In this document: positions 1,798 to 17,776 of the stretch, one piece after another
Layout: each line of letters opens with the position of its first letter
How positions within the stretch are numbered: position 1 is the stretch's first letter
From: Mesoflavibacter profundi
Lineage (GTDB): Bacteria > Bacteroidota > Bacteroidia > Flavobacteriales > Flavobacteriaceae
DNA length: 64,000 nt
Assembly: GCF_014764305.1 (NCBI RefSeq)
Contig: NZ_CP061703.1
Location: 2,647,501-2,711,500, forward strand
Reading direction: 5' to 3'
The notes under the pieces: model-generated
What the model saw: the letters and a program-made list of their open reading frames with translations, nothing else
Databases searched by the model: none
What the model was told of the DNA's origin: nothing
Position numbers and translations under genes: made by a program

Positions 1798-3732
1798 TTA
1801 ATGATATGCGTTAGTTATTATAAATTTAGATCTCCTATTTTCTTCGTGTTCTTGGTCTGTACATTTAACACCGTTTGTACATTTATTTAGTATTTGAGTT
1901 TCACCATAACCAATTGCGCTTTGAACACGTTCTGTAGCTATTCCTCTAGAGAATAAATAATCTCTTGTAGATTTTGCTCTTCTATCCGATAGTTTTAGGT
2001 TATAAGCATCTCTACCACGACTATCTGTATGAGATTCTATTTTAATTATCATTCTTGGATGTTCTCTCATTACAGCTACTATATTTTCTAACTCGTAAGC
2101 AGCATCTGGTCTAATGTTAGATTTGTCGTAATCAAAATAAATTGGATTAATTACAATTTCGTTATCTATAATTAAAGGTTTTAAAAATAAATTAATTTCT
2201 GTGGTATCGTTATTATTTGGTGTTGTCTTAAATTCTTTTTTATCAGGTCTATAAACAACTCTTTCGGCTAAAACAGTATAGGTTTTATCACAGCCTATTT
2301 TAAATTCATAATATCCATCTGTATCTGTTAGGTAACGTTCTAAAACTTTACCATTCTCGTCAATAACTACCACATTAACTTTAGATAATGTTTCATTAGT
2401 TAATTCGTCTCTTACAATACCCTTTACGGTTTGCTCACAAATAAATTTTCCAAATGCATAAATATCGTCTCCGCCTTGTCCGCCTTCTCTGTTTGAAGAA
2501 AAATAGCCTGTATTTGTTTCAGTATCAATAAAAAAACAAAAATCATCAAACGGACTGTTGTAAGGCGCTCCTAAATTTTTGACTTCAATTTTATCTTGAT
2601 TTTTCTTTAAAATGTTACTTTCAAAAATGTCTAATAAACCTAAGTTTATATTGGCATCACTAGAAAAATATAAGGTTGAATCTTTAGCAATAAACGGGAA
2701 TTTTTCATTACCTTCTGTATTTATCTTTGGTCCTAAATTTTTTGGTTCACCAAAAGTTCCATCTTCATTTATAGAAACTTTATACAGGTCTGTTTGTCCA
2801 TAACCACCTTCCATATCAGATACAAAAAACAAAGTTTTATTATCTGGACTTAAAGCTGGTGCACCACAAGAATATCCATCGTTATTAAAAGGTAATTCAG
2901 TAATATTGGTCCACTTATTTTCCTTTTTTGTTGCTCGGTAAATTTTTAAGTTAGATGTACCTTCTTTATTATATCTACGCTTATCTTTTTTATTAACGTT
3001 ATTCCTTGTAAAATACATGGTTTGACCATCGTTAGTTATTGTTACTAAACCTTCGTGGTCGTTTGGTGTATTAATATCAGAATTTAATTTTTCGGCTTTA
3101 CTATATAATAAGCTATCGTTATCTCTAGTTGTTGTAGATTCAAAAATGTTTAAAAACGGTTCTTGGTTCCACTCGTAAAGTTCTTTTTTATCAGTAATCG
3201 AATCTTTTACCCAAGTAGAGTAGAAGTAAAGCTTATCTTTAAATGCATAACCACCAAAATCTGAATATTTAGTGTTTAATGGTATGTTTTTTACATTCAC
3301 ATAAACTTTTTCTGTATTTGTAAGGGAATTATAAGTATCTAAATTAAAGTTGTCTATATCTTTAATTCTCTTATCTTTTTTATTCTTAGCGTTAAATTGT
3401 TTTAGGTAAGCGTTAGCCTCTTCATATTTTTTTTGATTTCGTAACGTTTGAATGTACTTATAAATGTATTCTGAGTCTATTTCTGGATATTTATTTATCG
3501 CTTTATTATACCAAAGTGCTGCTTGATCTATTTTACTAACATTAAAGTAGCAGTCACCTAATCTTGATAAAATATGTAGTGTACTATCTTCTTTTTTAAG
3601 TGCTTCTTTATATAATTCGGCTGCTTTTTCGTAATTATAATCTCTAAAAAAATTATCGGCAACTTTAGTTTGTGCAGATATATTTTGAATTAAAAATAAT
3701 ATTAAAATATATGGTAAATAATTTAGTTTCAT
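1798..3732 (-). CDS. OmpA-family outer-membrane protein with TPR, PD40 propeller and CarboxypepD_reg regions (PorE-like)
   Basis: A 644-residue envelope protein with signal peptide (residues 1-20, ending SAQ). Domain order: TPR-like helices (~25-115), beta-propeller/PD40-type segments such as LSPDNKTLFFVSDMEGG (~220-425), a carboxypeptidase-regulatory-like domain (~430-510, VKGIVRDELTNETLSKV), then a C-terminal OmpA peptidoglycan-binding domain (~525-640) with FDYDKSNIRPDA, ESHTDSRG and LSDRRAKS. This TPR-propeller-CRD-OmpA architecture matches PorE-type proteins that couple type IX secretion components to peptidoglycan. It is the third gene of the adhesin operon, 2 bp after the SprF-like gene. 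I infer that it anchors or supports export of the adhesin; its specific role in this operon is not shown by the sequence. Confidence 0.9.
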   Translation of the reverse strand: MKLNYLPYILILFLIQNISAQTKVADNFFRDYNYEKAAELYKEALKKEDSTLHILSRLGDCYFNVSKIDQAALWYNKAINKYPEIDSEYIYKYIQTLRNQKKYEEANAYLKQFNAKNKKDKRIKDIDNFNLDTYNSLTNTEKVYVNVKNIPLNTKYSDFGGYAFKDKLYFYSTWVKDSITDKKELYEWNQEPFLNIFESTTTRDNDSLLYSKAEKLNSDINTPNDHEGLVTITNDGQTMYFTRNNVNKKDKRRYNKEGTSNLKIYRATKKENKWTNITELPFNNDGYSCGAPALSPDNKTLFFVSDMEGGYGQTDLYKVSINEDGTFGEPKNLGPKINTEGNEKFPFIAKDSTLYFSSDANINLGLLDIFESNILKKNQDKIEVKNLGAPYNSPFDDFCFFIDTETNTGYFSSNREGGQGGDDIYAFGKFICEQTVKGIVRDELTNETLSKVNVVVIDENGKVLERYLTDTDGYYEFKIGCDKTYTVLAERVVYRPDKKEFKTTPNNNDTTEINLFLKPLIIDNEIVINPIYFDYDKSNIRPDAAYELENIVAVMREHPRMIIKIESHTDSRGRDAYNLKLSDRRAKSTRDYLFSRGIATERVQSAIGYGETQILNKCTNGVKCTDQEHEENRRSKFIITNAYH

Positions 3733-3734
3733 GT

Positions 3735-4682
3735 TTAGAAATATCTAGGTGATTTAACACGTCTTGTAGGTTTAAAAACTTCAAACATTAACACTATTTC
3801 GTGCGTTCCTCCAGTGTAAGGTCTTAAATCTGTAATGTAATGCTCGTAGGCATAACCAATTCTCATTTGAGGTGAAATTTGAAAATCTGCCAATGCGCCT
3901 ATTGTAGAAGTATCTTCGTTGTATCTATAACTTCCACCAATCCAAAACTTTTCATAGAATAATAAATGAGCACTAAGGTCAAATGTTATTGGTGCACCAT
4001 TTGTAAATTTTACAACTGTGGAAGGTTTAAGCTTTGTGTTTTCTCCTAAGTCTACAACGTAACCAGCAGTAAAGTAATAGGCTACACGTTCTAACGCTTT
4101 ATATTCTATATTTGGATCTAAAGCAGATTCGTTATAATCTGTTTTTAAGATTCTTGGAGCAGATAAACCAACGTACCATTTGTTTTGATGTAAGTAAGCT
4201 CCAACACCAAAATTAGGATTCCATCTATTTGTGAAATTACTAAAAAACGGATCTTCAGCAACACTTTCATCATTTAAAAAGCCTTCTCTATCTAAATTAT
4301 AATGAATAAATCCAGCGCTTAAACCTAAACCAAGTTTAGTTTTTTCAGAAACTTGTATTGTGTAAGAAAAAGCACCATTTAAATAGACAAAGTTTTCATA
4401 ACCCAATTCATCATTAATCACAGTTGCTCCTAATCCAATTTTTTCATTTCTTAAAGGCGAATGTACAGATAGCGTAGAAGTTGTTGGCGCACCAGCTAAT
4501 CCAACCCATTGACTTCTATGTAAACCAACTACACTTAATGTTTCTCTACTTCCTGCATATGCTGGATTTATAGAAATTGTATTAAACATATACTGTGTAA
4601 ATTGTGGTAATTGTTGTGCTTCAACTTGTAAAAAATTAAGTAGTAGCAATAGAACAATACAATATTTTGATATTTTTTTCAT
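3735..4682 (-). CDS. PorP/SprF-family type IX secretion membrane protein
   Basis: A 315-residue outer-membrane beta-barrel protein with a signal peptide (residues 1-22, ending VEAQ). The opening QLPQFTQYMFNTISINPAYAGSRE is the hallmark of the PorP/SprF family, followed by alternating aromatic strands, RSQWVGLAGAPTT and a barrel-like C-terminus ending at an aromatic residue. In Flavobacterium johnsoniae SprF is needed for surface delivery of the adjacent giant adhesin SprB. Here it lies 11 bp after a giant adhesin gene and 2 bp before the OmpA-family gene, the same arrangement. I infer that it is the dedicated export or attachment partner of the 4360-residue adhesin. Confidence 0.93.
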   Translation of the reverse strand: MKKISKYCIVLLLLLNFLQVEAQQLPQFTQYMFNTISINPAYAGSRETLSVVGLHRSQWVGLAGAPTTSTLSVHSPLRNEKIGLGATVINDELGYENFVYLNGAFSYTIQVSEKTKLGLGLSAGFIHYNLDREGFLNDESVAEDPFFSNFTNRWNPNFGVGAYLHQNKWYVGLSAPRILKTDYNESALDPNIEYKALERVAYYFTAGYVVDLGENTKLKPSTVVKFTNGAPITFDLSAHLLFYEKFWIGGSYRYNEDTSTIGALADFQISPQMRIGYAYEHYITDLRPYTGGTHEIVLMFEVFKPTRRVKSPRYF

Positions 4683-4693
4683 TTAAAATCTAA

Positions 4694-7600
4694 TTATTTT
4701 GTACCTAAATAAATTGGACCAGCAATTGGTTTTAATCCACTGTTTTTAAGTACTACTACATAATAATAGGTTCCGTTAGGTAATCTACCAGCATTACCTA
4801 TAGATGAGTTTGGTGATATACCGCTCCAATCATTTTGATAATCGTTAGATTGGTAAACTATGTCTCCAAATCTATTAAATAATTTGAGTTCAACAATATA
4901 ACCGCAATCTACAGCTCCGGTTACTCTAAATGTCTCGTTAAATCCATCTCCATTTGGTGTTACCGCTTTAGATATTTTTATTCTATCTAATCCGCAAGGT
5001 AATACAACACATTCGTCATTAATGTTTAAAGTCAATTCTATCGTATTGTAACATCCATTTTCATTTACTGTTGTATAAGTAAATAAATAATCACCTAATT
5101 CTACTTCTAAAGGATCAAATATTCCATTTACTATTTCTATACCATCGGTTACAACATTCCATTCTAAAGTATCATCAATACCTGCTGGTAAAAATTGGTA
5201 TAAGTCAATTTCTCCATCTTCAAAACATCTAGTTTCATAAATTTCTTCAATGTAATTTTCTGTAGTTACATTTATAGTATGAGAAATTTGAGTTTCATTT
5301 CCACAGTCGTCTATCGCAACCCAATTCCAGGTAATTGTATAATTATCTTCATTTCCAGTAAAAGTTGAAATTTCTTCAAACGAAATAGAAATATCTTGAG
5401 CAGAACAGTTGTCAATAAAATCAAGTGTCGGAATTTCAGGAATTTCAGAACATGTTACTGAATTTGGTAAGTTTAATTGAGAACTTAATTCAGGACCAGT
5501 CGTATCCGAAAGTGTTAACGTCGCCGAAGTAGATGAACTATTACCACAATCATCACTAACGATATAGTTAACAGTAATGGTACCACCAAGACCACAAGTA
5601 CTTACAAAATTATTAAAGTCGAAATCAGAGGTTACAGTAAAGATATTATCAGCATCACACGCATCCGAAGCACAAGTCTCAAGCGCAGCAATATTAGCCG
5701 CATTCCAATCAGAAGCTAAGGTATTGTTATTAGCACCATCACATTCTAAAGTAGCATCCACAACAGATGTACACGCTGATACATCAGGACCAGTCGTATC
5801 CGAAAGCGTTAATGTCGCCGAAGTAGACGAACTATTACCACAATCATCACTAACCGTATAGTTAACAGTAATGGTACCACCAAGACCACAAGTACTTACA
5901 AAATTATTAAAGTCGAAATCAGAGGTTACAGAAATAGCAGATGAACAGTTATCCGAAGCACAAGTCTCAAGCGCAGCGATATTAGCCGCATTCCAATCAG
6001 AAGCTAAGGTACTGTTGTTAGTTCCATCACATTCTAAAGTAGCATCCACAACAGACGTACACGCCGATACATCAGGACCAGTTGTATCTGAAAGTGTTAA
6101 TGTTGCCGAAGTAGACGAGCTATTTCCACAATCATCACTTACGATATAGTTAACAGTAATGGTACCACCAAGACCACAAGTACTTACAAAATTATTAAAA
6201 TCGAAATCAGAGGTTACAGTAAAGATATTATCAGCATCACACGCATCCGAAGCACAAGTCTCAAGCGCAGCAATATTAGCCGCATTCCAATCAGAAGCTA
6301 AGGTATTGTTATTAGCACCATCACATTCTAAAGTAGCATCCACAACAGATGTACACGCTGATACATCAGGACCAGTCGTATCCGAAAGCGTTAATGTCGC
6401 CGAAGTAGACGAGCTATTTCCACAATCATCACTAACCGTATAGTTAACAGTAATGGTACCACCAAGACCACAAGTACTTACAAAATTATTAAAGTCGAAA
6501 TCAGAGGTTACAGTAAAGATATTATCAGCATCACACGCATCCGAAGCACAAGTCTCAAGCGCAGCAATATTAGCCGCATTCCAATCAGAAGCTAAGGTAT
6601 TGTTATTAGCACCATCACATTCTAAAGTAGCATCCACAACAGATGTACACGCTGATACATCAGGACCAGTCGTATCCGAAAGCGTTAATGTCGCCGAAGT
6701 AGACGAACTATTTCCACAATCATCACTAACCGTATAGTTAACAGTTATGGTACCACCAAGACCACAAGTACTTACAAAATTATTAAAGTCGAAATCAGAG
6801 GTTACAGAAATAGCAGATGAACAGTTATCCGAAGCACAAGTCTCAAGCGCAGCGATATTAGCCGCATTCCAATCAGAAGCTAAGGTACTGTTGTTAGTTC
6901 CATCACATTCTAAAGTCGCATCCACAACAGACGTACACGCCGATACATCAGGACCAGTTGTATCCGAAAGCGTTAATGTTGCCGAAGTAGACGAACTATT
7001 ACCACAATCATCACTAACCGTATAGTTAACAGTAATGGTACCACCAAGACCACAAGAACTCACAAAATTATTAAAATCGAAATCAGACGTCACAGAAATA
7101 GCAGACGAGCAGTTATCCGAAGCACAAGTCTCAAGCGCAGCGATATTAGCCGCATTCCAATCAGAAGCTAAGGTACTGTTGTTAGTTCCATCACATTCTA
7201 AAGTCGCATCCACAACAGACGTACACGCCGATACATCAGGACCAGTTGTATCCGAAAGCGTTAACGTAGCCGAAGTAGACGAGCTATTACCACAATCATC
7301 ACTAACCGTATAGTTAACAGTAATTGTACCACCAAGACCACAAGAACTCACAAAATTATTAAAGTCGAAATCAGAGGTTACAGTAAAGGTATTATCAGCA
7401 TCACACGCATCCGAAGCACAAGTCTCAAGCGCAGCGATATTAGTTGCATTCCAATCAGACGCTAAGGTACTATTATTAGCACCATCACATTCTAAAGTCG
7501 CATCCACAACAGACGTACACGCTGATAAATCAGGACCAGTCGTATCCGAAAGCGTTAATGTTGCAGTAAGCGAGGTTGTGTTACCACACGCATCGGTAGC

Positions 7601-10600
7601 CGTATAAGTTACAGGTAATATACCACCAAGTCCACAAACAGCAGTAGAATCAAAATTATTAAAGTCGTAATTAGAAGAAATAGTAACAGCAATATCATTA
7701 GCACAAGCTTGTAGCATAGCGATATTATCATTATTCCATTGATCAGCAATTAATTGATTATCGTTACCATTACATTCTAAAGTCGCATCATTAACATTAC
7801 ATGTCGATAAATCAGGACCAGATGCATCACCAAAAGTAAGCGTTACAGTAATAGAAGAAGCGTTGTTACAATCGTCAGTAACGGTATAAGTAACCGCAAT
7901 ATTACCACAAGGACCACAAACGGTATTTAAGTTATTAAAGTCATAATCAGAGGTCACAGAAATAGCAGACGAGCAGTTATCCGAAGCACAAGCTTGAAGC
8001 GCAGCAATATTATCACTATTCCATTGATCAGCGATAGTTTGATTATCATTCGCTGTACAGTCAACATTAGTATCCACAACAGACGTACACGCTGATAAGT
8101 CAGGACCAGTTGTATCCGAAAGGGTTAATGTTGCCGAAGTAGACGAACTATTACCACAATCATCACTAATCGTATAGTTAACAGTAATGGTACCACCTAA
8201 ACCACAAGAACTCACAAAATTATTTAAGTCAAAATCAGAGGTTACAGTAAAGGTATTATCAGCATCACACGCATCCGAAGCACAAGTCTCAAGCGCAGCG
8301 ATATTAGCTGCATTCCAATCAGAAGCTAAGGTATTGTTGTTAGCACCATCACATTCTAAAGTAGCATCTACCACAGACGTACACGCCGATACATCAGGAC
8401 CAGTTGTATCCGAAAGGGTTAATGTTGCCGAAGTAGACGAGCTATTACCACAATCATCACTAACCGTATAGTTAACAGTAATTGTACCACCAAGACCACA
8501 AGCACTTACAAAATTATTAAAATCGAAATCAGAGGTTACAGTAAAAGTATTATCAGCATCACACGCATCCGAAGCACAAGTCTCAAGCGCAGCGATATTA
8601 GCCGCATTCCAATCAGAAGCTAAGGTACTGTTATTAGCACCATCACATTCTAAAGTAGCATCTACCACAGACGTACACGCCGATACATCAGGACCAGTCG
8701 TATCCGAAAGTGTTAATGTAGCCGAAGTAGACGAACTATTACCACAATCATCACTAATCGTATAGTTAACAGTAATTGTACCACCAAGACCACAAGCACT
8801 CACAAAATTATTAAAGTCGAAATCAGAGGTTACAGTAAAGGTATTATCAGCATCACACGCATCCGAAGAACAAGTCTCAAGCGCAGCGATATTAGTTGCA
8901 TTCCAATCAGAAGCTAATGTACTGTTGTTAGTCCCATCACATTCTAAAGTAGCATCAACAACAGATGTACACGCCGATACATCAGGACCAGTTGTATCCG
9001 AAAGCGTTAATGTTGCCGAAGTAGACGAACTATTACCACAATCATCACTAACCGTATAGTTAACAGTAATGGTACCACCAAGACCACAAGAACTCACAAA
9101 ATTATTAAAATCGAAATCAGAGGTTACAGAAATAGCAGACGAGCAGTTATCCGAAGTACAAGTCTCAAGCGCAGCGATATTAGTTGCATTCCAATCAGAA
9201 GCTAATGTACTGTTGTTAGTCCCATCACATTCTAAAGTAGTATCTACCACAGACGTACACGCCGATACATCAGGACCAGTTGTATCCGAAAGCGTTAACG
9301 TAGCCGAAGTAGACGAGCTATTACCACAATCATCACTAACCGTATAGTTAACAGTAATCGTACCACCAAGACCACAAGAACTCACAAAATTATTAAAGTC
9401 GAAATCAGAGGTTACGGTAAAGGTATTATCAGCATCACATGCATCCGAAGCACAAGTCTCAAGCGCAGCGATATTAGCCGCATTCCAATCAGAAGCTAGC
9501 GTACTATTATTAGCACCATCACATTCTAAAGTCGCATCCACAACAGACGTACACGCCGATACATCAGGACCAGTTGTATCCGAAAGGGTTAATGTAGCAG
9601 TAAGCGAGGTTGTGTTACCACATGCATCGGTAGCCGTATAAGTTACAGGTAATATACCACCAAGTCCACAAACAGCAGTAGTATCAAAATTATTAAAGTC
9701 GTAATTAGAAGAAATAACCACAGCAATATCATTAGCACAAGCTTGTAGCATAGCGATATTATCATTATTCCATTGATCAGCAATTAATTGATTATCGTTA
9801 CCATTACATTCTAAAGTCGCATCATTAACATTACATGTCGATAAATCAGGACCAGATGCATCACCAAAAGTAAGCGTTACAGTAATAGAAGAAGCGTTGT
9901 TACAATCGTCAGTAACGGTATAAGTAACCGTAATATTACCACAAGGACCACAAACGGTATTTAAGTTATTAAAGTCATAATCAGAGGTCACAGAAATAGC
10001 AGACGAGCAGTTATCCGAAGCACAAGCTTGAAGCGCAGCAATATTATCACTATTCCATTGATCAGCGATAGTTTGATTATCATTAGCTGTACAGTCAACA
10101 TTAGCATCCACAACAGACGTACACGCTGATAAATCAGGACCAGTTGTATCCGAAAGGGTTAATGTTGCCGAAGTAGACGAACTATTACCACAATCATCAC
10201 TAACCATATAGTTAACAGTAATAGTACCACCAAGACCACAAGAACTCACAAAATTATTAAAATCAAAATCAGACGTCACAGAAATAGCAGACGAGCAGTT
10301 ATCCGAAGCACAAGTCTCAAGCGCAGCGATATTAGCCGCATTCCAATCAGAAGCTAAGGTACTGTTGTTAGTCCCATCACATTCTAAAGTAGCATCTACC
10401 ACAGACGTACACGCCGATACATCAGGACCAGTTGTATCCGAAAGTGTTAACGTCGCCGAAGTAGACGAGCTATTACCACAATCATCACTAACCGTATAGT
10501 TAACAGTAATTGTACCACCAAGACCACAAGCACTTACAAAATTATTAAAATCGAAATCAGACGTCACAGAAATAGTAGACGAGCAGTTATCCGAAGCACA

Positions 10601-13600
10601 AGTCTCAAGCGCAGCGATATTAGCCGCATTCCAATCAGAAGCTAAGGTACTGTTGTTAGTTCCATCACATTCTAAAGTCGTATCCACAACAGATGTACAC
10701 GCCGATAATTCAGGACCAGTTGTATCCGAAAGCGTTAACGTAGCCGAAGTAGACGAGCTATTACCACAATCATCACTAACCGTATAGTTAACAGTAATCG
10801 TACCACCAAGACCACAAGAACTCACAAAATTATTAAAGTCGAAATCAGAGGTTACGGTAAAGGTATTATCAGCATCACATGCATCGGAAGCACAAGTCTC
10901 AAGCGCAGCGATATTAGCCGCATTCCAATCAGAAGCTAAGGTACTGTTATTAGTCCCATCACATTCTAAAGTAGCATCCACAACAGACGTACACGCCGAT
11001 AATTCAGGACCAGTTGTATCCGAAAGTGTTAACGTCGCCGAAGTAGATGAACTATTCCCACAATCATCACTAATCGTATAGTTAACAGTAATCGTACCGC
11101 CTAAACCACAAGAACTCACAAAATTATTAAAGTCGAAATCAGAGGTTACGGTAAAGGTATTATCAGCATCACATGCATCGGAAGCACAAGTCTCAAGCGC
11201 AGCGATATTAGCCGCATTCCAATCAGAAGCTAAGGTACTGTTGTTAGTTCCATCACATTCTAAAGTCGCATCCACAACAGACGTACACGCCGATACATCA
11301 GGACCAGTTGTATCCGAAAGCGTTAACGTCGCCGAAGTAGACGAGCTATTACCACAATCATCACTAACCGTATAGTTAACAGTAATTGTACCACCAAGAC
11401 CACAAGAACTCACAAAATTATTAAAGTCGAAATCAGAGGTTACAGTAAAGGTATTATCAGCATCACACGCATCCGAAGCACAAGTCTCAAGCGCAGCGAT
11501 ATTAGTTGCATTCCAATCAGAAGCTAAGGTACTATTATTAGCACCATCACATTCTAAAGTCGCATCCACAACAGACGTACACGCCGATACATCAGGACCA
11601 GTTGTATCCGAAAGGGTTAATGTAGCAGTAAGCGAGGTTGTGTTACCACATGCATCGGTAGCCGTATAAGTTACAGGTAATATACCACCAAGTCCACAAA
11701 CAGCAGTAGTATCAAAATTATTAAAGTCGTAATTAGAAGAAATAGTAACAGCAATATCATTAGCACAAGCTTGTAGCATAGCGATATTATCATTATTCCA
11801 TTGATCAGCAATTAATTGATTATCGTTACCATTACATTCTAAAGTCGCATCATTAACATTACATGTCGATAAATCAGGACCAGATGCATCACCAAAAGTA
11901 AGCGTTACAGTAATAGAAGAAGCGTTGTTACAATCGTCAGTAACGGTATAAGTAACCGCAATATTACCACAAGGACCACAAACGGTATTTAAGTTATTAA
12001 AGTCATAATCAGAGGTCACAGAAATAGCAGACGAGCAGTTATCCGAAGCACAAGCTTGAAGCGCAGCAATATTATCACTATTCCATTGATCAGCGATAGT
12101 TTGATTATCATTCGCTGTACAGTCAACATTAGTATCCACAACAGACGTACACGCTGATAAGTCAGGACCAGTTGTATCCGAAAGGGTTAATGTTGCCGAA
12201 GTAGACGAACTATTACCACAATCATCACTAATCGTATAGTTAACAGTAATGGTACCACCTAAACCACAAGCACTCACAAAATTATTAAAGTCGAAATCAG
12301 AGGTTACGGTAAAGGTATTATCAGCATCACATGCATCCGAAGCACAAGTCTCAAGCGCAGCGATATTAGCCGCATTCCAATCAGAAGCTAGCGTACTATT
12401 ATTAGCACCATCACATTCTAAAGTCGCATCCACAACAGACGTACACGCCGATACATCAGGACCAGTTGTATCCGAAAGTGTTAACGTCGCCGAAGTAGAT
12501 GAACTATTCCCACAATCATCACTAACCATATAGTTAACAGTAATAGTACCACCAAGACCACAAGAACTCACAAAATTATTAAAATCGAAATCAGACGTCA
12601 CAGAAATAGTAGACGAGCAGTTATCCGAAGCACAAGTCTCAAGCGCAGCGATATTAGCTGCATTCCAATCAGAAGCTAAGGTACTGTTGTTAGTTCCATC
12701 ACATTCTAAAGTCGCATCCACAACAGATGTACACGCCGATAATTCAGGACCAGTTGTATCCGAAAGTGTTAACGTCGCCGAAGTAGACGAACTATTTCCA
12801 CAATCATCACTAACCGTATAGTTAACAGTAATGGTACCACCAAGTCCACAAGAACTTACAAAATTATTAAAGTCGAAATCAGAGGTTACTGTAAAGATAT
12901 TATCAGCATCACACGCATCCGAAGCACAAGTCTCAAGCGCAGCGATATTAGCCGCATTCCAATTAGAAGCTAAGGTATTGTTGTTAGTTCCATCACATTC
13001 TAAAGTAGCATCTACAACAGACGTACACGCTGATACATCAGGACCAGTCGTATCCGAAAGCGTTAATGTTGCAGTAAGCGAGGTTGTGTTACCACACGCA
13101 TCGGTAGCCGTATAAGTTACAGGTAATGTACCACCAAGTCCACAAACAGCAGTAGAATCAAAATTATTAAAGTCGTAATTAGAAGAAATAGTAACAGCAA
13201 TATCATTAGCACAAGCTTGTAACATAGCGATATTATCATTATTCCATTGATCAGCAATTAATTGATTATCGTTACCATTACATTCTAAAGTCGCATCATT
13301 AACATTACATGTCGATAAATCAGGACCAGATGCATCACCAAAAGCAAGCGTTACGGTAATAGAAGAAGCGTTGTTACAATCGTCAGTAACGGTATAAGTA
13401 ACCGTAATATTACCACAAGGACCACAAACGGTATTTAAGTTATTAAAGTCATAATCAGAGGTTACAGAAATAGTAGACGAGCAGTTATCTGAAGCACAAG
13501 CTTGAAGCGCAGCGATATTATCACTATTCCATTGATCAGCGATAGTTTGATTATCATTAGCTGTACAGTCAACATTAGTATCCACAACAGATGTACACGC

Positions 13601-16600
13601 TGATAAATCAGGACCAGTTGTATCCGAAAGTGTTAATGTTGCCGAAGTAGACGAGCTATTACCACAATCATCACTAACCGTATAGTTAACAGTAATGGTA
13701 CCACCAAGACCACAAGAACTTACAAAATTATTAAAGTCGAAATCAGAGGTTACTGTAAAGATATTATCAGCATCACACGCATCCGAAGCACAAGTCTCAA
13801 GTGCAGCGATATTAGCCGCATTCCAATCAGAAGCTAAGGTATTGTTGTTAGCACCATCACATTCTAAAGTAGCATCTACAACAGACGTACACGCTGATAC
13901 ATCAGGACCAGTCGTATCCGAAAGCGTTAATGTTGCAGTAAGCGAGGTTGTGTTACCACATGCATCGGTAGCCGTATAAGTTACAGGTAAGATACCACCA
14001 AGTCCACAAACAGCAGTAGAATCAAAATTATTAAAGTCGTAATTAGAAGAAATATTAACAGCAATATCATTAGCACAAGCTTGTAACATAGCGATATTAT
14101 CATTATTCCATTGATCAGCAATTAATTGATTATCGTTACCATTACATTCTAAAGTCGCATCATTAACATTACATGTCGATAAATCAGGACCAGACGCATC
14201 ACCAAAAGTAAGCGTTACAGTAATAGAAGAAGTGTTATTACAATCGTCAGTAACGGTATAAGTAACCGTAATATTACCACAAGGACCACAAACGGTATTT
14301 AAGTTATTAAAGTCATAATCAGAGGTTACAGAAATAGTAGACGAGCAGTTATCTGAAGCACAAGCTTGAAGCGCAGCGATATTATCACTATTCCATTGAT
14401 CAGCGATAGTTTGATTATCATTCGCTGTACAGTCAACATTAGTATCCACAACAGATGTACACGCTGATACATCAGGACCAGTCGTATCCGAAAGTGTTAA
14501 TGTCGCCGAAGTAGACGAACTATTACCACAATCATCACTAACCGTATAGTTAACAGTAATCGTACCACCAAGACCACAAGAACTTACAAAATTATTAAAG
14601 TCGAAATCAGAGGTTACTGTAAAGATATTATCAGCATCACACGCATCCGAAGCACAAGTCTCAAGCGCAGCGATATTAGCCGCATTCCAATCAGAAGCTA
14701 AGGTATTGTTATTAGCACCATCACATTCTAAAGTAGCATCCACAACAGATGTACACGCTGATACATCAGGACCAGTCGTATCCGAAAGGGTTAACGTAGC
14801 CGAAGTAGATGAACTATTACCACAATCATCACTAACCGTATAGTTAACAGTAATGGTACCACCTAAACCACAAGAACTTACAAAATTATTAAAGTCGAAA
14901 TCAGAGGTTACAGTAAAAGTATTATCAGCATCACAAGCATCCGAAGCACAAGTCTCAAGCGCAGCGATATTAGCCGCATTCCAATCAGAAGCTAAGGTAT
15001 TGTTGTTAGCACCATCACATTCTAAAGTAGCATCTACCACAGACGTACACGCCGATACATCAGGACCGGTTGTATCTGAAAGGGTTAATGTAGCAGTAAG
15101 CGAGGTTGTGTTACCACATGCATCGGTAGCCGTATAAGTTACAGGTAATGTACCACCAAGTCCACAAACAGCAGTAGTATCAAAATTATTAAAGTCGTAA
15201 TTAGAAGAAATAGTAACAGCAATATCATTAGCACAAGCTTGTAGCATAGCGATATTATCATTATTCCATTGATCAGCAATTAATTGATTATCGTTACCAT
15301 TACATTCTAAAGTCGCATCATTAACATTACATGTCGATAAATCAGGACCAGACGCATCACCAAAAGTAAGAGTTACGGTAATGGAAGAAGTGTTGTTACA
15401 ATCATCAGTAACGGTATAAGTAACCGCAATATTACCACAAGGACCACAAACGGTATTTAAGTTATTAAAGTCATAATCAGAGGTTACAGAAATAGTAGAC
15501 GAGCAGTTATCCGAAGCACAAGCTTGAAGCGCAGCAATATTATCACTATTCCATTGATCAGCGATAGTTTGATTATCATTAGCTGTACAGTCAACATTAG
15601 TATCTACCACAGATGTACACGCCGATAAGTCAGGCGATATGTTGTCAGAAACAGTTATAATTTGTGTTTGATCTGGAGCAGGATTTCCGCAGTTATCAAC
15701 TAAAGACCATGTTCTTGTAATAGTGTAAGTTCCTTCACAAGATCCATTTGTAATTGTATCTGAATATGTAGCTTCTAAATTATTTGAAGAACAATTATCA
15801 TTTTCATCGGTAACATCTCCAGTATTTGAAATAGAAGGATCATAATTACATGCATTATCAACAAAAATTTCAATATCTGAAGGTGCAGTAAAAGTTGGTG
15901 GAGTATTATCTACAACTGTTATAACTTGTGTGTAATCTGCAATAGTGTTTCCGCAGGAATCTGTAAAAGTCCATGTATTTGTATAAGTTCCTGTATAATT
16001 ACAGTTAGCATCTGTAGGAACAAAATTACCTGATGTTTTTACAGGTGTTAAATTGCTGCAACTAGCCATAGGACTTAATGCTTGGGCATTATTTAAAGCA
16101 GTTGTATCATCACAATCTACAACTCTGTCTAGAGCAAACGGAGCAGTTACCCATGTAGCAGGTAATGGCGGATTAACAACAACAGTTGTTAAAAGGTTAT
16201 TACCTTGATTACATGTATCCAGACTATTAGAACTTACTATATTAAATAAAGTTCCGTTTAATTCGCCATTATATGTAGCTTCTAATTGAGAATTTAAAAC
16301 AGTAGAACATCCATTTTCTAAATAATAACATTGATCATTGACAGTAGTTTGAAAGTTAAAATTTAAAGTATCGCCAACATCAAGTAATCCATTAGCAGCG
16401 TAAAAAGTAAGCTGTCTTGTTGTGTTGTTATAAGTGTATGTCATACCTGTTGGTAAGCCAACAATAGGTTGAACTAATTCTGATCCAACAGGAACAGTAG
16501 TTGTAAAAGTAATATTTGTAGCGTTATCGTTACCTGTATTACTTGTAGTTGCTGTATAAGTTATTGTTTCTGGAGTAGTTCCTGGTATTACACTATTTGG

Positions 16601-17776
16601 AGTAGCATTAAAAAATATTGGATCTAGTTTAGGCTCGTATACTTCTACAGCTAATCCTAATAAATATAAACCATAAGTCTCTTGATTAGAGGTTAGTCTT
16701 AATGTTGTAGATGTCTGGTTATTGTCTAAAAGAGAGTTGCCTTGATTTTTTAAAGGAAATATTGCTGAGTCAAATCCTAAAGTATTTAAACTTGCAGGAT
16801 TACGATCTGTAAAGTTATTACTACCGTTACTTGGTCCTAAAGTAATTCTACTATTAAAAAAATTATTTGCGTCTCTTAGAGGCGCATCTAAATCTACAAA
16901 GACATTAGATGTGTTTCTCATCTGTAGTCTATCACCAGCAAGATCACGGTCACCTTCTAAAGCACCGATAATTATATCTGATCGAACTGCACCATTAGGT
17001 ACAGTTAAAAATCCATTAAAATTAATATCAAAATTATTGTTTGTACTAGTTACGTTAGCATAACCATCAAATAAAGAAATATTCTTTCTTTTTAAATTAT
17101 CACTTTTATAAACTAAAACAATTTGCCAACCACCAGAAGTACCTGTATTATTACCATCATGACTAACTAAATAACCCTGTTTACCTTCTACATTAGCAAC
17201 TTGATATTTACCAAAAGAATTGTTGTTATTTAAAACACTAGAAGTAATGTCTTTAACGCAGATATATGCATCGTTTATAAAATGCGGATTTTCATTTCTT
17301 CCTCTAAAAATTACTTGATCTGCAGTTATTGTAGAATAAGTAGTTTGTCCTGGAAGCATTAATTTAACTTGGTTATAGTTCCAGTTTGGTTGGTTATCTG
17401 CTTCAACGTTATTATTAATATTTCCTTTATCTGCTGCAGCCCAATATAAAAGTACTTTGTCTACTGCTAAACAAGGATCGTCTGGTTTTGGATTAACAAT
17501 ATTTGCACTACTAGAGTTAAATGTTGTATTGTCGTTATCAATATCTACATAAACATTGTCTGCAAAGTCGTGGTTACCATCTTCACCATTGTAATTACCT
17601 GTAGCAGTTCTAGAAATAGTGTTGTTACCAACAACAATTACATCTCCGTTAATACTACTTTGGTATCTAAGTGAAAAACTTTTTTTTACCTGTGCAAAAC
17701 TAAAGGTTGCACTTAAAATTAAAGCTAAAAAGATTATAGCTTTTTTATAATTTATAGTTAGTTTCAAATTTTTCAA
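4694..17776 (-). CDS. Giant repetitive cell-surface adhesin with T9SS type-B (gliding-associated) C-terminal domain
   Basis: A 4360-residue secreted protein (~13 kb). Residues 1-29 are a signal peptide ending SFAQ. About 30-540 is a unique N-terminal region that includes a DUF11-like segment (~380-480). About 545-710 holds HYR-like modules. About 713-4092 is an array of ~35 modules of 94-98 residues, each beginning G-P-[DE]-[VL]-S and ending in LTLSDTT or LTFGDAS. After a further HYR-like segment, the last ~100 residues (TPNGDGFNETF, LFNRFGDIVYQS, LPNGTYYYVV) form the CHU_C / gliding-motility-associated C-terminal domain used for type IX secretion. The only start before the signal peptide is TTG at 17776; no in-frame ATG lies between it and the upstream stop. 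It is first in an operon with the SprF-like and OmpA-like genes. The role in adhesion or gliding is inferred from architecture and neighbours. Confidence 0.92.
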   Translation of the reverse strand: MKNLKLTINYKKAIIFLALILSATFSFAQVKKSFSLRYQSSINGDVIVVGNNTISRTATGNYNGEDGNHDFADNVYVDIDNDNTTFNSSSANIVNPKPDDPCLAVDKVLLYWAAADKGNINNNVEADNQPNWNYNQVKLMLPGQTTYSTITADQVIFRGRNENPHFINDAYICVKDITSSVLNNNNSFGKYQVANVEGKQGYLVSHDGNNTGTSGGWQIVLVYKSDNLKRKNISLFDGYANVTSTNNNFDINFNGFLTVPNGAVRSDIIIGALEGDRDLAGDRLQMRNTSNVFVDLDAPLRDANNFFNSRITLGPSNGSNNFTDRNPASLNTLGFDSAIFPLKNQGNSLLDNNQTSTTLRLTSNQETYGLYLLGLAVEVYEPKLDPIFFNATPNSVIPGTTPETITYTATTSNTGNDNATNITFTTTVPVGSELVQPIVGLPTGMTYTYNNTTRQLTFYAANGLLDVGDTLNFNFQTTVNDQCYYLENGCSTVLNSQLEATYNGELNGTLFNIVSSNSLDTCNQGNNLLTTVVVNPPLPATWVTAPFALDRVVDCDDTTALNNAQALSPMASCSNLTPVKTSGNFVPTDANCNYTGTYTNTWTFTDSCGNTIADYTQVITVVDNTPPTFTAPSDIEIFVDNACNYDPSISNTGDVTDENDNCSSNNLEATYSDTITNGSCEGTYTITRTWSLVDNCGNPAPDQTQIITVSDNISPDLSACTSVVDTNVDCTANDNQTIADQWNSDNIAALQACASDNCSSTISVTSDYDFNNLNTVCGPCGNIAVTYTVTDDCNNTSSITVTLTFGDASGPDLSTCNVNDATLECNGNDNQLIADQWNNDNIAMLQACANDIAVTISSNYDFNNFDTTAVCGLGGTLPVTYTATDACGNTTSLTATLTLSDTTGPDVSACTSVVDATLECDGANNNTLASDWNAANIAALETCASDACDADNTFTVTSDFDFNNFVSSCGLGGTITVNYTVSDDCGNSSSTSATLTLSDTTGPDVSACTSVVDATLECDGANNNTLASDWNAANIAALETCASDACDADNIFTVTSDFDFNNFVSSCGLGGTITVNYTVSDDCGNSSSTSATLTLSDTTGPDVSACTSVVDTNVDCTANDNQTIADQWNSDNIAALQACASDNCSSTISVTSDYDFNNLNTVCGPCGNITVTYTVTDDCNNTSSITVTLTFGDASGPDLSTCNVNDATLECNGNDNQLIADQWNNDNIAMLQACANDIAVNISSNYDFNNFDSTAVCGLGGILPVTYTATDACGNTTSLTATLTLSDTTGPDVSACTSVVDATLECDGANNNTLASDWNAANIAALETCASDACDADNIFTVTSDFDFNNFVSSCGLGGTITVNYTVSDDCGNSSSTSATLTLSDTTGPDLSACTSVVDTNVDCTANDNQTIADQWNSDNIAALQACASDNCSSTISVTSDYDFNNLNTVCGPCGNITVTYTVTDDCNNASSITVTLAFGDASGPDLSTCNVNDATLECNGNDNQLIADQWNNDNIAMLQACANDIAVTISSNYDFNNFDSTAVCGLGGTLPVTYTATDACGNTTSLTATLTLSDTTGPDVSACTSVVDATLECDGTNNNTLASNWNAANIAALETCASDACDADNIFTVTSDFDFNNFVSSCGLGGTITVNYTVSDDCGNSSSTSATLTLSDTTGPELSACTSVVDATLECDGTNNSTLASDWNAANIAALETCASDNCSSTISVTSDFDFNNFVSSCGLGGTITVNYMVSDDCGNSSSTSATLTLSDTTGPDVSACTSVVDATLECDGANNSTLASDWNAANIAALETCASDACDADNTFTVTSDFDFNNFVSACGLGGTITVNYTISDDCGNSSSTSATLTLSDTTGPDLSACTSVVDTNVDCTANDNQTIADQWNSDNIAALQACASDNCSSAISVTSDYDFNNLNTVCGPCGNIAVTYTVTDDCNNASSITVTLTFGDASGPDLSTCNVNDATLECNGNDNQLIADQWNNDNIAMLQACANDIAVTISSNYDFNNFDTTAVCGLGGILPVTYTATDACGNTTSLTATLTLSDTTGPDVSACTSVVDATLECDGANNSTLASDWNATNIAALETCASDACDADNTFTVTSDFDFNNFVSSCGLGGTITVNYTVSDDCGNSSSTSATLTLSDTTGPDVSACTSVVDATLECDGTNNSTLASDWNAANIAALETCASDACDADNTFTVTSDFDFNNFVSSCGLGGTITVNYTISDDCGNSSSTSATLTLSDTTGPELSACTSVVDATLECDGTNNSTLASDWNAANIAALETCASDACDADNTFTVTSDFDFNNFVSSCGLGGTITVNYTVSDDCGNSSSTSATLTLSDTTGPELSACTSVVDTTLECDGTNNSTLASDWNAANIAALETCASDNCSSTISVTSDFDFNNFVSACGLGGTITVNYTVSDDCGNSSSTSATLTLSDTTGPDVSACTSVVDATLECDGTNNSTLASDWNAANIAALETCASDNCSSAISVTSDFDFNNFVSSCGLGGTITVNYMVSDDCGNSSSTSATLTLSDTTGPDLSACTSVVDANVDCTANDNQTIADQWNSDNIAALQACASDNCSSAISVTSDYDFNNLNTVCGPCGNITVTYTVTDDCNNASSITVTLTFGDASGPDLSTCNVNDATLECNGNDNQLIADQWNNDNIAMLQACANDIAVVISSNYDFNNFDTTAVCGLGGILPVTYTATDACGNTTSLTATLTLSDTTGPDVSACTSVVDATLECDGANNSTLASDWNAANIAALETCASDACDADNTFTVTSDFDFNNFVSSCGLGGTITVNYTVSDDCGNSSSTSATLTLSDTTGPDVSACTSVVDTTLECDGTNNSTLASDWNATNIAALETCTSDNCSSAISVTSDFDFNNFVSSCGLGGTITVNYTVSDDCGNSSSTSATLTLSDTTGPDVSACTSVVDATLECDGTNNSTLASDWNATNIAALETCSSDACDADNTFTVTSDFDFNNFVSACGLGGTITVNYTISDDCGNSSSTSATLTLSDTTGPDVSACTSVVDATLECDGANNSTLASDWNAANIAALETCASDACDADNTFTVTSDFDFNNFVSACGLGGTITVNYTVSDDCGNSSSTSATLTLSDTTGPDVSACTSVVDATLECDGANNNTLASDWNAANIAALETCASDACDADNTFTVTSDFDLNNFVSSCGLGGTITVNYTISDDCGNSSSTSATLTLSDTTGPDLSACTSVVDTNVDCTANDNQTIADQWNSDNIAALQACASDNCSSAISVTSDYDFNNLNTVCGPCGNIAVTYTVTDDCNNASSITVTLTFGDASGPDLSTCNVNDATLECNGNDNQLIADQWNNDNIAMLQACANDIAVTISSNYDFNNFDSTAVCGLGGILPVTYTATDACGNTTSLTATLTLSDTTGPDLSACTSVVDATLECDGANNSTLASDWNATNIAALETCASDACDADNTFTVTSDFDFNNFVSSCGLGGTITVNYTVSDDCGNSSSTSATLTLSDTTGPDVSACTSVVDATLECDGTNNSTLASDWNAANIAALETCASDNCSSAISVTSDFDFNNFVSSCGLGGTITVNYTVSDDCGNSSSTSATLTLSDTTGPDVSACTSVVDATLECDGTNNSTLASDWNAANIAALETCASDNCSSAISVTSDFDFNNFVSTCGLGGTITVNYTVSDDCGNSSSTSATLTLSDTTGPDVSACTSVVDATLECDGANNNTLASDWNAANIAALETCASDACDADNIFTVTSDFDFNNFVSTCGLGGTITVNYTVSDDCGNSSSTSATLTLSDTTGPDVSACTSVVDATLECDGANNNTLASDWNAANIAALETCASDACDADNIFTVTSDFDFNNFVSTCGLGGTITVNYIVSDDCGNSSSTSATLTLSDTTGPDVSACTSVVDATLECDGTNNSTLASDWNAANIAALETCASDNCSSAISVTSDFDFNNFVSTCGLGGTITVNYTVSDDCGNSSSTSATLTLSDTTGPDVSACTSVVDATLECDGANNNTLASDWNAANIAALETCASDACDADNIFTVTSDFDFNNFVSTCGLGGTITVNYIVSDDCGNSSSTSATLTLSDTTGPELSSQLNLPNSVTCSEIPEIPTLDFIDNCSAQDISISFEEISTFTGNEDNYTITWNWVAIDDCGNETQISHTINVTTENYIEEIYETRCFEDGEIDLYQFLPAGIDDTLEWNVVTDGIEIVNGIFDPLEVELGDYLFTYTTVNENGCYNTIELTLNINDECVVLPCGLDRIKISKAVTPNGDGFNETFRVTGAVDCGYIVELKLFNRFGDIVYQSNDYQNDWSGISPNSSIGNAGRLPNGTYYYVVVLKNSGLKPIAGPIYLGTK
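5499..15637 (-). repeat. Coding tandem repeat array, ~35 modules of 282-294 bp (types A, B, C)
   Basis: By reading module boundaries I count six A modules (96 aa, ...SVVDTNVDCTANDNQ...), six B modules (94 aa, ...STCNVNDATLECNGNDNQ...) and 23 C modules (98 aa with ACDADN, or 96 aa with the NCSS variant). In protein order the pattern is AB then C runs of 2, 1, 3, 5, 5 and 7. A is always followed by B. C modules differ at only a few residues and are near-identical in DNA, which implies recent duplication and homogenisation. Assembly of such a region from short reads would be difficult, so the exact module number should be taken with caution. Confidence 0.9.

Follow-up and report, generated by a model that had tools for sequence, protein, structure and literature searches.

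The window examined here is a stretch of 64,000 nucleotides from Mesoflavibacter profundi (contig NZ_CP061703.1, positions 2,647,501 to 2,711,500). Its minus strand carries a gene for a giant adhesin of 4360 residues, assigned to the type-B substrates of the type IX secretion system (T9SS), with an array of tandem HYR-type modules of five to seven cysteines (Cys) each. The distribution of these cysteines suggests that neighbouring modules are joined by disulfides across their junctions, and that the joint between modules of types A and B is likely an exception with fewer such bonds.

The adhesin and its module array

The adhesin consists of an N-terminal domain, a DUF11-like domain, two four-Cys HYR modules, an array of 35 modules, a terminal HYR module and a C-terminal CHU_C signal, with about 38 similar modules in total. 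Splitting the protein at the repeat boundary placed the 35 modules within 5498-15637. A preliminary description of this DNA had given the same end and a start one base off (5499). The features of the gene, in window coordinates and in the order of the protein, are as follows.

4694-17776, minus strand, gene of the giant T9SS type-B adhesin, 4360 residues
15647-16171 (approximate ends), minus strand, two four-Cys HYR-type modules before the array
15350-15637, minus strand, A module 1 (7 Cys)
15068-15349, minus strand, B module 1 (5 Cys)
14480-15067, minus strand, C modules 3-4 (6 Cys each)
14192-14479, minus strand, A module 2
13910-14191, minus strand, B module 2
13616-13909, minus strand, C module 7
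13328-13615, minus strand, A module 3
13046-13327, minus strand, B module 3
12170-13045, minus strand, C modules 10-12
11882-12169, minus strand, A module 4
11600-11881, minus strand, B module 4
10142-11599, minus strand, C modules 15-19
9854-10141, minus strand, A module 5
9572-9853, minus strand, B module 5
8108-9571, minus strand, C modules 22-26
7820-8107, minus strand, A module 6
7538-7819, minus strand, B module 6
5498-7537, minus strand, C modules 29-35
5260-5497 (approximate end), minus strand, last HYR-type module, after the array, three Cys
4709-4981, minus strand, CHU_C / T9SS type-B sorting domain

The six A modules are 96 residues long and have seven cysteines, at positions 7, 17, 40, 45, 64, 67 and 80. 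The six B modules (94 residues) have five, at 7, 16, 39, 62 and 78, and the 23 C modules (96 or 98 residues) have six. The modules follow each other in the order ABCCABCABCCCABCCCCCABCCCCCABCCCCCCC, in which A is followed by B in six of six cases and neither occurs alone. The A-B pairs begin at modules 1, 5, 8, 13, 20 and 27, spaced 3-7 modules apart, and are always intact. The additional cysteine of A is that at position 67, inside VCGPCG, while B modules lack the cysteine of the ASDxC motif (position 45) and have a surrounding loop a few residues shorter. The preliminary description had already given these counts, the two cysteine differences and the strict A-B order, and all were confirmed by the splitting of the protein. 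Cys67 of A creates CGPC, the four letters of the thioredoxin active site; the likeness is probably a coincidence, and a bond between 64 and 67 is possible. This site forms a two-residue turn flanked by short strands in both AlphaFold2 models (see below).

Single modules fall below the 27-bit cut-off of HYR_4C (PF23237, HYR-like domain with 4 cysteines), A scoring 12.7 bits and B and C giving no score; profile alignment with hhalign indicates homology (probability 99%, E 4.5e-18, 76 columns). The four conserved cysteines of HYR_4C correspond to positions 17, 45, 64 and 80, a set that is complete in A and C and lacks 45 in B. The A, B and C modules differ from HYR_4C in an inserted helix and in the additional pair Cys7-Cys40. 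Pfam matches to Cadherin_5 and Bact_surface_Ig-like were not used, being weak and summed over repeats, with single modules below the cut-off.

Cysteine covariation across module junctions

In relatives, modules with an odd number of cysteines, other than A and B, occur at the ends of runs. Cys80 is often missing from a module that comes after an unrelated domain, and Cys64 from a module that comes before one. This suggested that Cys64(n) is the partner of Cys80(n+1), where n and n+1 are successive modules. Covariation was calculated for 1,502 four-Cys HYR-type modules from about 105 open frames, chiefly of Flavobacteriaceae with some other families of Bacteroidota. The phi coefficient of Cys64(n) with Cys80(n+1) was 0.94 (1290 junctions with both present, 24 with both lost, 3 discordant); for the same two positions phi was 0.34 inside one module and 0.28 with the neighbour on the other side. 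When module order was shuffled within runs, the observed co-loss and low discordance were never reached in 5,000 trials, for which a slightly earlier quality filter was used. In locus L191 exactly this pair is missing at three separate junctions, with the flanking cysteines intact.

AlphaFold2 models were obtained for C-C-A-B-C (predicted local distance difference test, pLDDT, 90; predicted template modelling score, pTM, 0.59) and for A-B (pLDDT 91, pTM 0.74). In order, the elements of a module are a short strand up to Cys17, a helix of 19 residues with Cys40 at its end, then Cys45 and another strand. After Cys64 come a long strand, some 10 residues in length, a hairpin turn that holds Cys80, and a last long strand, which runs into the next module. 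As the long strand separates Cys64 from Cys80 in the models, the two must, as modelled, lie at opposite ends of the module; by the same reasoning the bottom is the probable place of Cys17, and the top that of Cys7, Cys40 and Cys45. Foldseek ranked the ectodomains of five-domain cadherins highest and also listed repeats of RTX adhesins. The A-B model aligns over both modules with two tandem SraP domains (Z 7.0, root mean square deviation 3.9, 145 residues), a middling Z that reflects a common arrangement, not kinship. A sequence search of solved structures gave no relative (best E 0.66).

Cys17 and Cys45 show the same direction of pairing less strongly, with a phi of -0.01 within modules and 0.30 between Cys17(n) and Cys45(n+1) in the 1,502-module set. 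The two were lost together, with 64 and 80 intact, at three junctions (one in L184, two in L187). Sites of such co-loss lie at residues 666-985 (L187), 1162-1320 (L184) and 3093-3261 (L226) of the respective open reading frames, and some of the apparent exceptions to this pairing are due to misalignment, to masked sequence or to HYR subtypes whose cysteines lie elsewhere. At the edges of runs, only Cys45 was absent from 22 and only Cys80 from 12 of 91 first modules, while only Cys64 was absent from 43 and only Cys17 from 14 of 96 last modules. Such loss of a single cysteine fits a partner in the missing neighbour and would be senseless for an internal pair. The module that follows the window array, with Cys17, 45 and 80 present and Cys64 absent, has a common pattern for run-terminal modules. 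First modules that lack only Cys45 (L186, L190, L155, L189, L043 and L054) often follow a single-Cys TVTDxNxC repeat, SprB-type by look; the pairing of its cysteine is not covered by the junction rule given below.

These data bear on two other assignments of the bonds. In the preliminary description each C module has three internal disulfides, and the extra cysteine of A bonds an unpaired one of B, locking the A-B joint only. The cysteine counts and the A-B pairing agree with this assignment, which is nevertheless quite improbable, as in the models a single long strand has Cys64 at one end and Cys80 at the other, and the two are co-lost across neighbours, not within modules. It also gives no reason for the single losses at run edges, and the junction rule leaves no cysteine of B without a partner. 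In a mixed assignment 17-45 is internal, 64(n)-80(n+1) crosses all junctions and a bond from A67 to B17 is added, so that A-B would be doubly stapled. The far stronger covariation of 64-80 than of 17-45 speaks for it. We regard it as unlikely, given the absence of 17/45 covariation within modules, the co-losses across neighbours in L184, L187 and L226, and the edge modules, of which the first drop 45 and retain 17 and the last drop 17 and retain 45; it would moreover strip B17 from its partner in the following C module.

The junction rule states that the number of cysteines at the bottom of module n equals the number at the top of module n+1. It applied to 1,241 of 1,255 non-A junctions (98.9%), with agreement of 86% at lag 0 (within the module) and 85% at lag -1. 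Among non-redundant junctions (<60% identity) 10 of 408 had count mismatches, where shuffling gave a mean of 58 and a minimum of 47. Both HYR modules before the window array obey the rule, with each other and with A module 1. Four cysteines were present at 1,211 of the 1,255 ordinary junctions and two at 30, the ordinary arrangement being 2+2; at A-B junctions the facing cysteines are split 3+1 in 62 of 62 cases, again four in total. Within modules Cys7 covaries with Cys40 (phi 0.81), as would suit an internal bond.

Four cysteines at so many ordinary junctions and at all 62 A-B junctions would also suit a metal (zinc) site at each junction in place of two disulfides, with CGPC of A as a zinc-knuckle-like half site. 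Losses are however pairwise and specific, 64 going with 80 and 17 with 45, which leaves the two-Cys junctions mentioned, and disulfides are more usual in a surface-exported protein. The zinc site is thus considered very improbable.

A held-out set of 24 further loci, taken from genomes of families other than Flavobacteriaceae, was processed with the frozen pipeline, with targets fixed in advance (phi of 64(n) with 80(n+1) above 0.8; count rule at least 97%). The phi value was 0.92, above its target, with 182 junctions having both cysteines, 33 neither and 5 discordant. The count rule applied to 93.6% of junctions, below its target though above the 87% and 86% obtained for the two remaining offsets; parity mismatches numbered 14 of 220, versus 75 after shuffling. 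The within-module phi was also fairly high (0.74), owing to two-Cys HYR modules that form long runs and have neither cysteine. One further co-loss of Cys17 and Cys45 was found in this set, in L226, where the 64/80 pair is then missing at the next junction.

The A-B joint and the proposed bonding

The DNA identity of the window copies is 96% for A-A, 98% for B-B and 93% for C-C, and about 70% between types. Because copies within a type are 93-98% identical, the six A-B pairs of the window are, on this evidence, copies of one pair and count as a single observation. Homologous arrays were therefore surveyed in Bizionia, Lacinutrix, Psychroserpens, Arcticiflavibacter and other Flavobacteriaceae; they are about 50-71% identical over A-B and have the same cysteine columns (7, 17, 40, 45, 64, 67 and 80). 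In these relatives each module with Cys67 and a readable successor is followed by a module without Cys45. The pattern is interrupted only where contigs end and in one Lacinutrix draft contig (L040), which has a frameshift at 9277, after an A module; the B sequence is still there, read in a different frame. The obligate pairing, for which the preliminary description had suggested a survey of homologues, thus had no true exception wherever the successor could be read. A-B pairs without adjoining C modules occur in L052 and L054. Arrays of C modules with neither A nor B occur in L013 and L044.

All 41 sampled A modules fall in one clade (41/41, support 99/95), B and C being less well resolved, and for this reason the A-B pairing is taken, from the tree, to have a single inherited origin and to have been kept. 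Neutral inheritance, in which the pair arose once and was copied as a unit with no need of a functional constraint, has a probability that we put a little short of even. The single A clade agrees with it, as does the variation of the C runs from 1 to 7 modules around an intact pair; unequal crossing-over would take place within the near-identical types and rarely between types of about 70% identity. Inheritance accounts for the adjacency of A and B, but not for the four cysteines conserved per junction across unrelated modules. It is compatible with a stapled rod and does not exclude it.

For the adhesin of the window we hold it rather probable that ordinary joints of the shaft have two disulfides and A-B joints a single staple, the latter being most likely hinges. 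The shaft would be a rod of HYR-type modules, similar to immunoglobulin and cadherin domains, with Cys17 and Cys64 (or 66) at the bottom, C-terminal end of each module and Cys45 and Cys80 (or 82) at its top. At an ordinary junction Cys17(n) would bond Cys45(n+1) and Cys64(n) would bond Cys80(n+1), and Cys7-Cys40 would be the sole internal bond of the long modules. We infer the disulfides from the observed counts, A-B pairing, covariation, edge losses and count rule. The idea of the preliminary description that disulfides cross module boundaries is supported as likely by the covariation, the edge losses and the element order. Its three internal disulfides per C module are not, as 17, 45, 64 and 80 appear to bond between modules; a C module probably has a single internal disulfide and is linked to each neighbour by two more (17-45 and 64-80).

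At the A-B joint Cys45 and its loop would have been lost from the top of B, and Cys67 (in CGPC) gained at the bottom of A; since the junction total stays at four, Cys67 of A is read as replacing Cys45 of B. One bond would then be closed within A (17-67 or 64-67) and one staple would cross to B, the choice of the crossing cysteine being a matter of interpretation. The cysteines of B would be bonded 7-40 internally and from 17 and 64 to the next module, so that none is left for the extra cysteine of A, to which the preliminary description had paired one. With the split of 3+1 a single staple is predicted for A-B, as against two at ordinary joints, hence a less locked joint, where the preliminary description had seen the locked one. 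In a rod that is elsewhere stiff, with two staples at each joint, the A-B joints would most likely act as hinges or relieve strain. Bonds from A67 to B78, and then from A67 to B17, were considered and dropped after the edge-loss and co-loss data.

Several points weigh against this assignment, in addition to the shortfall of the count rule in the held-out set. The pairing of Cys17 with Cys45 is drawn from a few co-losses and the edge losses. Many edge modules have lost one of two partnerless cysteines and kept the other, for which a partner is perhaps present in the flanking domain. The placement of cysteines at top and bottom was deduced from the order and length of elements in the models, not from sulfur-sulfur distances. 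The mature adhesin has 231 cysteines, an odd number, which leaves at least one unpaired. DsbA over the curated cut-off, VKOR and Thioredoxin_4 were not found in this genome, whereas positive controls were obtained in other genomes. The persistence of A-B may reflect inheritance rather than selection, given the single origin of A, and the role of A-B as a hinge, a looser rather than a tighter joint, is probable as an interpretation of the cysteine split.

Cross-module disulfides are likely a general rule of HYR-type rods, with A-B as an exception that has fewer. The full statement, that HYR_4C-type rods of Bacteroidota have two disulfides per junction, readable from the cysteine counts of the facing ends, with A-B joints as inherited single-staple hinges, has in our estimate an even chance of being correct.

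Export and comparison with known systems

A profile search found the C-terminal CHU_C / TIGR04131 signal of the adhesin with 71.2 and 40.4 bits, both above the cut-off. The gene adjoins that of a carrier on the same strand, which matches TIGR03519 with 271.8 bits. The neighbouring genes are as follows.

3735-4682, minus strand, PorP/SprF-family membrane protein, likely surface anchor
1798-3732, minus strand, PorE/CHU_0125-like OmpA-family protein

The adhesin is very likely exported and anchored at the surface, since PorP-like partners are thought to anchor type-B T9SS substrates (PMC9143113). Disulfides in the cell envelope are known from Flavobacterium johnsoniae (PMC12635249).

A search of the open-access literature on HYR disulfides, inter-repeat disulfides and disulfides joining adjacent immunoglobulin-like domains gave no description of the cysteine rule, and the preliminary description had likewise known of none. 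If correct, the rule would make a large class of Bacteroidota surface adhesins covalently stapled rods, not beads on a string, and would bear on how long shafts carry force and on T9SS export. From sequence it would predict which cysteines bond, where runs end and which joints differ in stiffness. It would also be a caution that counts made by module misassign bonds that cross module boundaries.

With its CHU_C signal and adjacent PorP/SprF-family carrier, the adhesin resembles the SprB/SprF type-B adhesins of the T9SS (PMC9143113, PMC12635249). In F. johnsoniae a Cys-Xaa-Cys motif links SprF to GldK (PMC12635249). The window carrier differs in ending with ...FEVFKPTRRVKSPRYF, a C-terminal tail that has no cysteine and hence no twin-cysteine motif. 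Attachment to the gliding track is doubtful for this reason, and the adhesin may not ride on it. Like cadherins and the extenders of RTX adhesins, the shaft is a rod of tandem, end-to-end beta-sandwiches (PMC7493085). The linkers of those rods are stiffened by calcium (PMC7493085), whereas two disulfides per joint are proposed here. The giant adhesin of Mobiluncus likewise has repeated immunoglobulin-like domains strengthened by covalent bonds (PMC10619420); its cross-links are described there as lying within each domain, and those of the present adhesin would lie between neighbouring domains.

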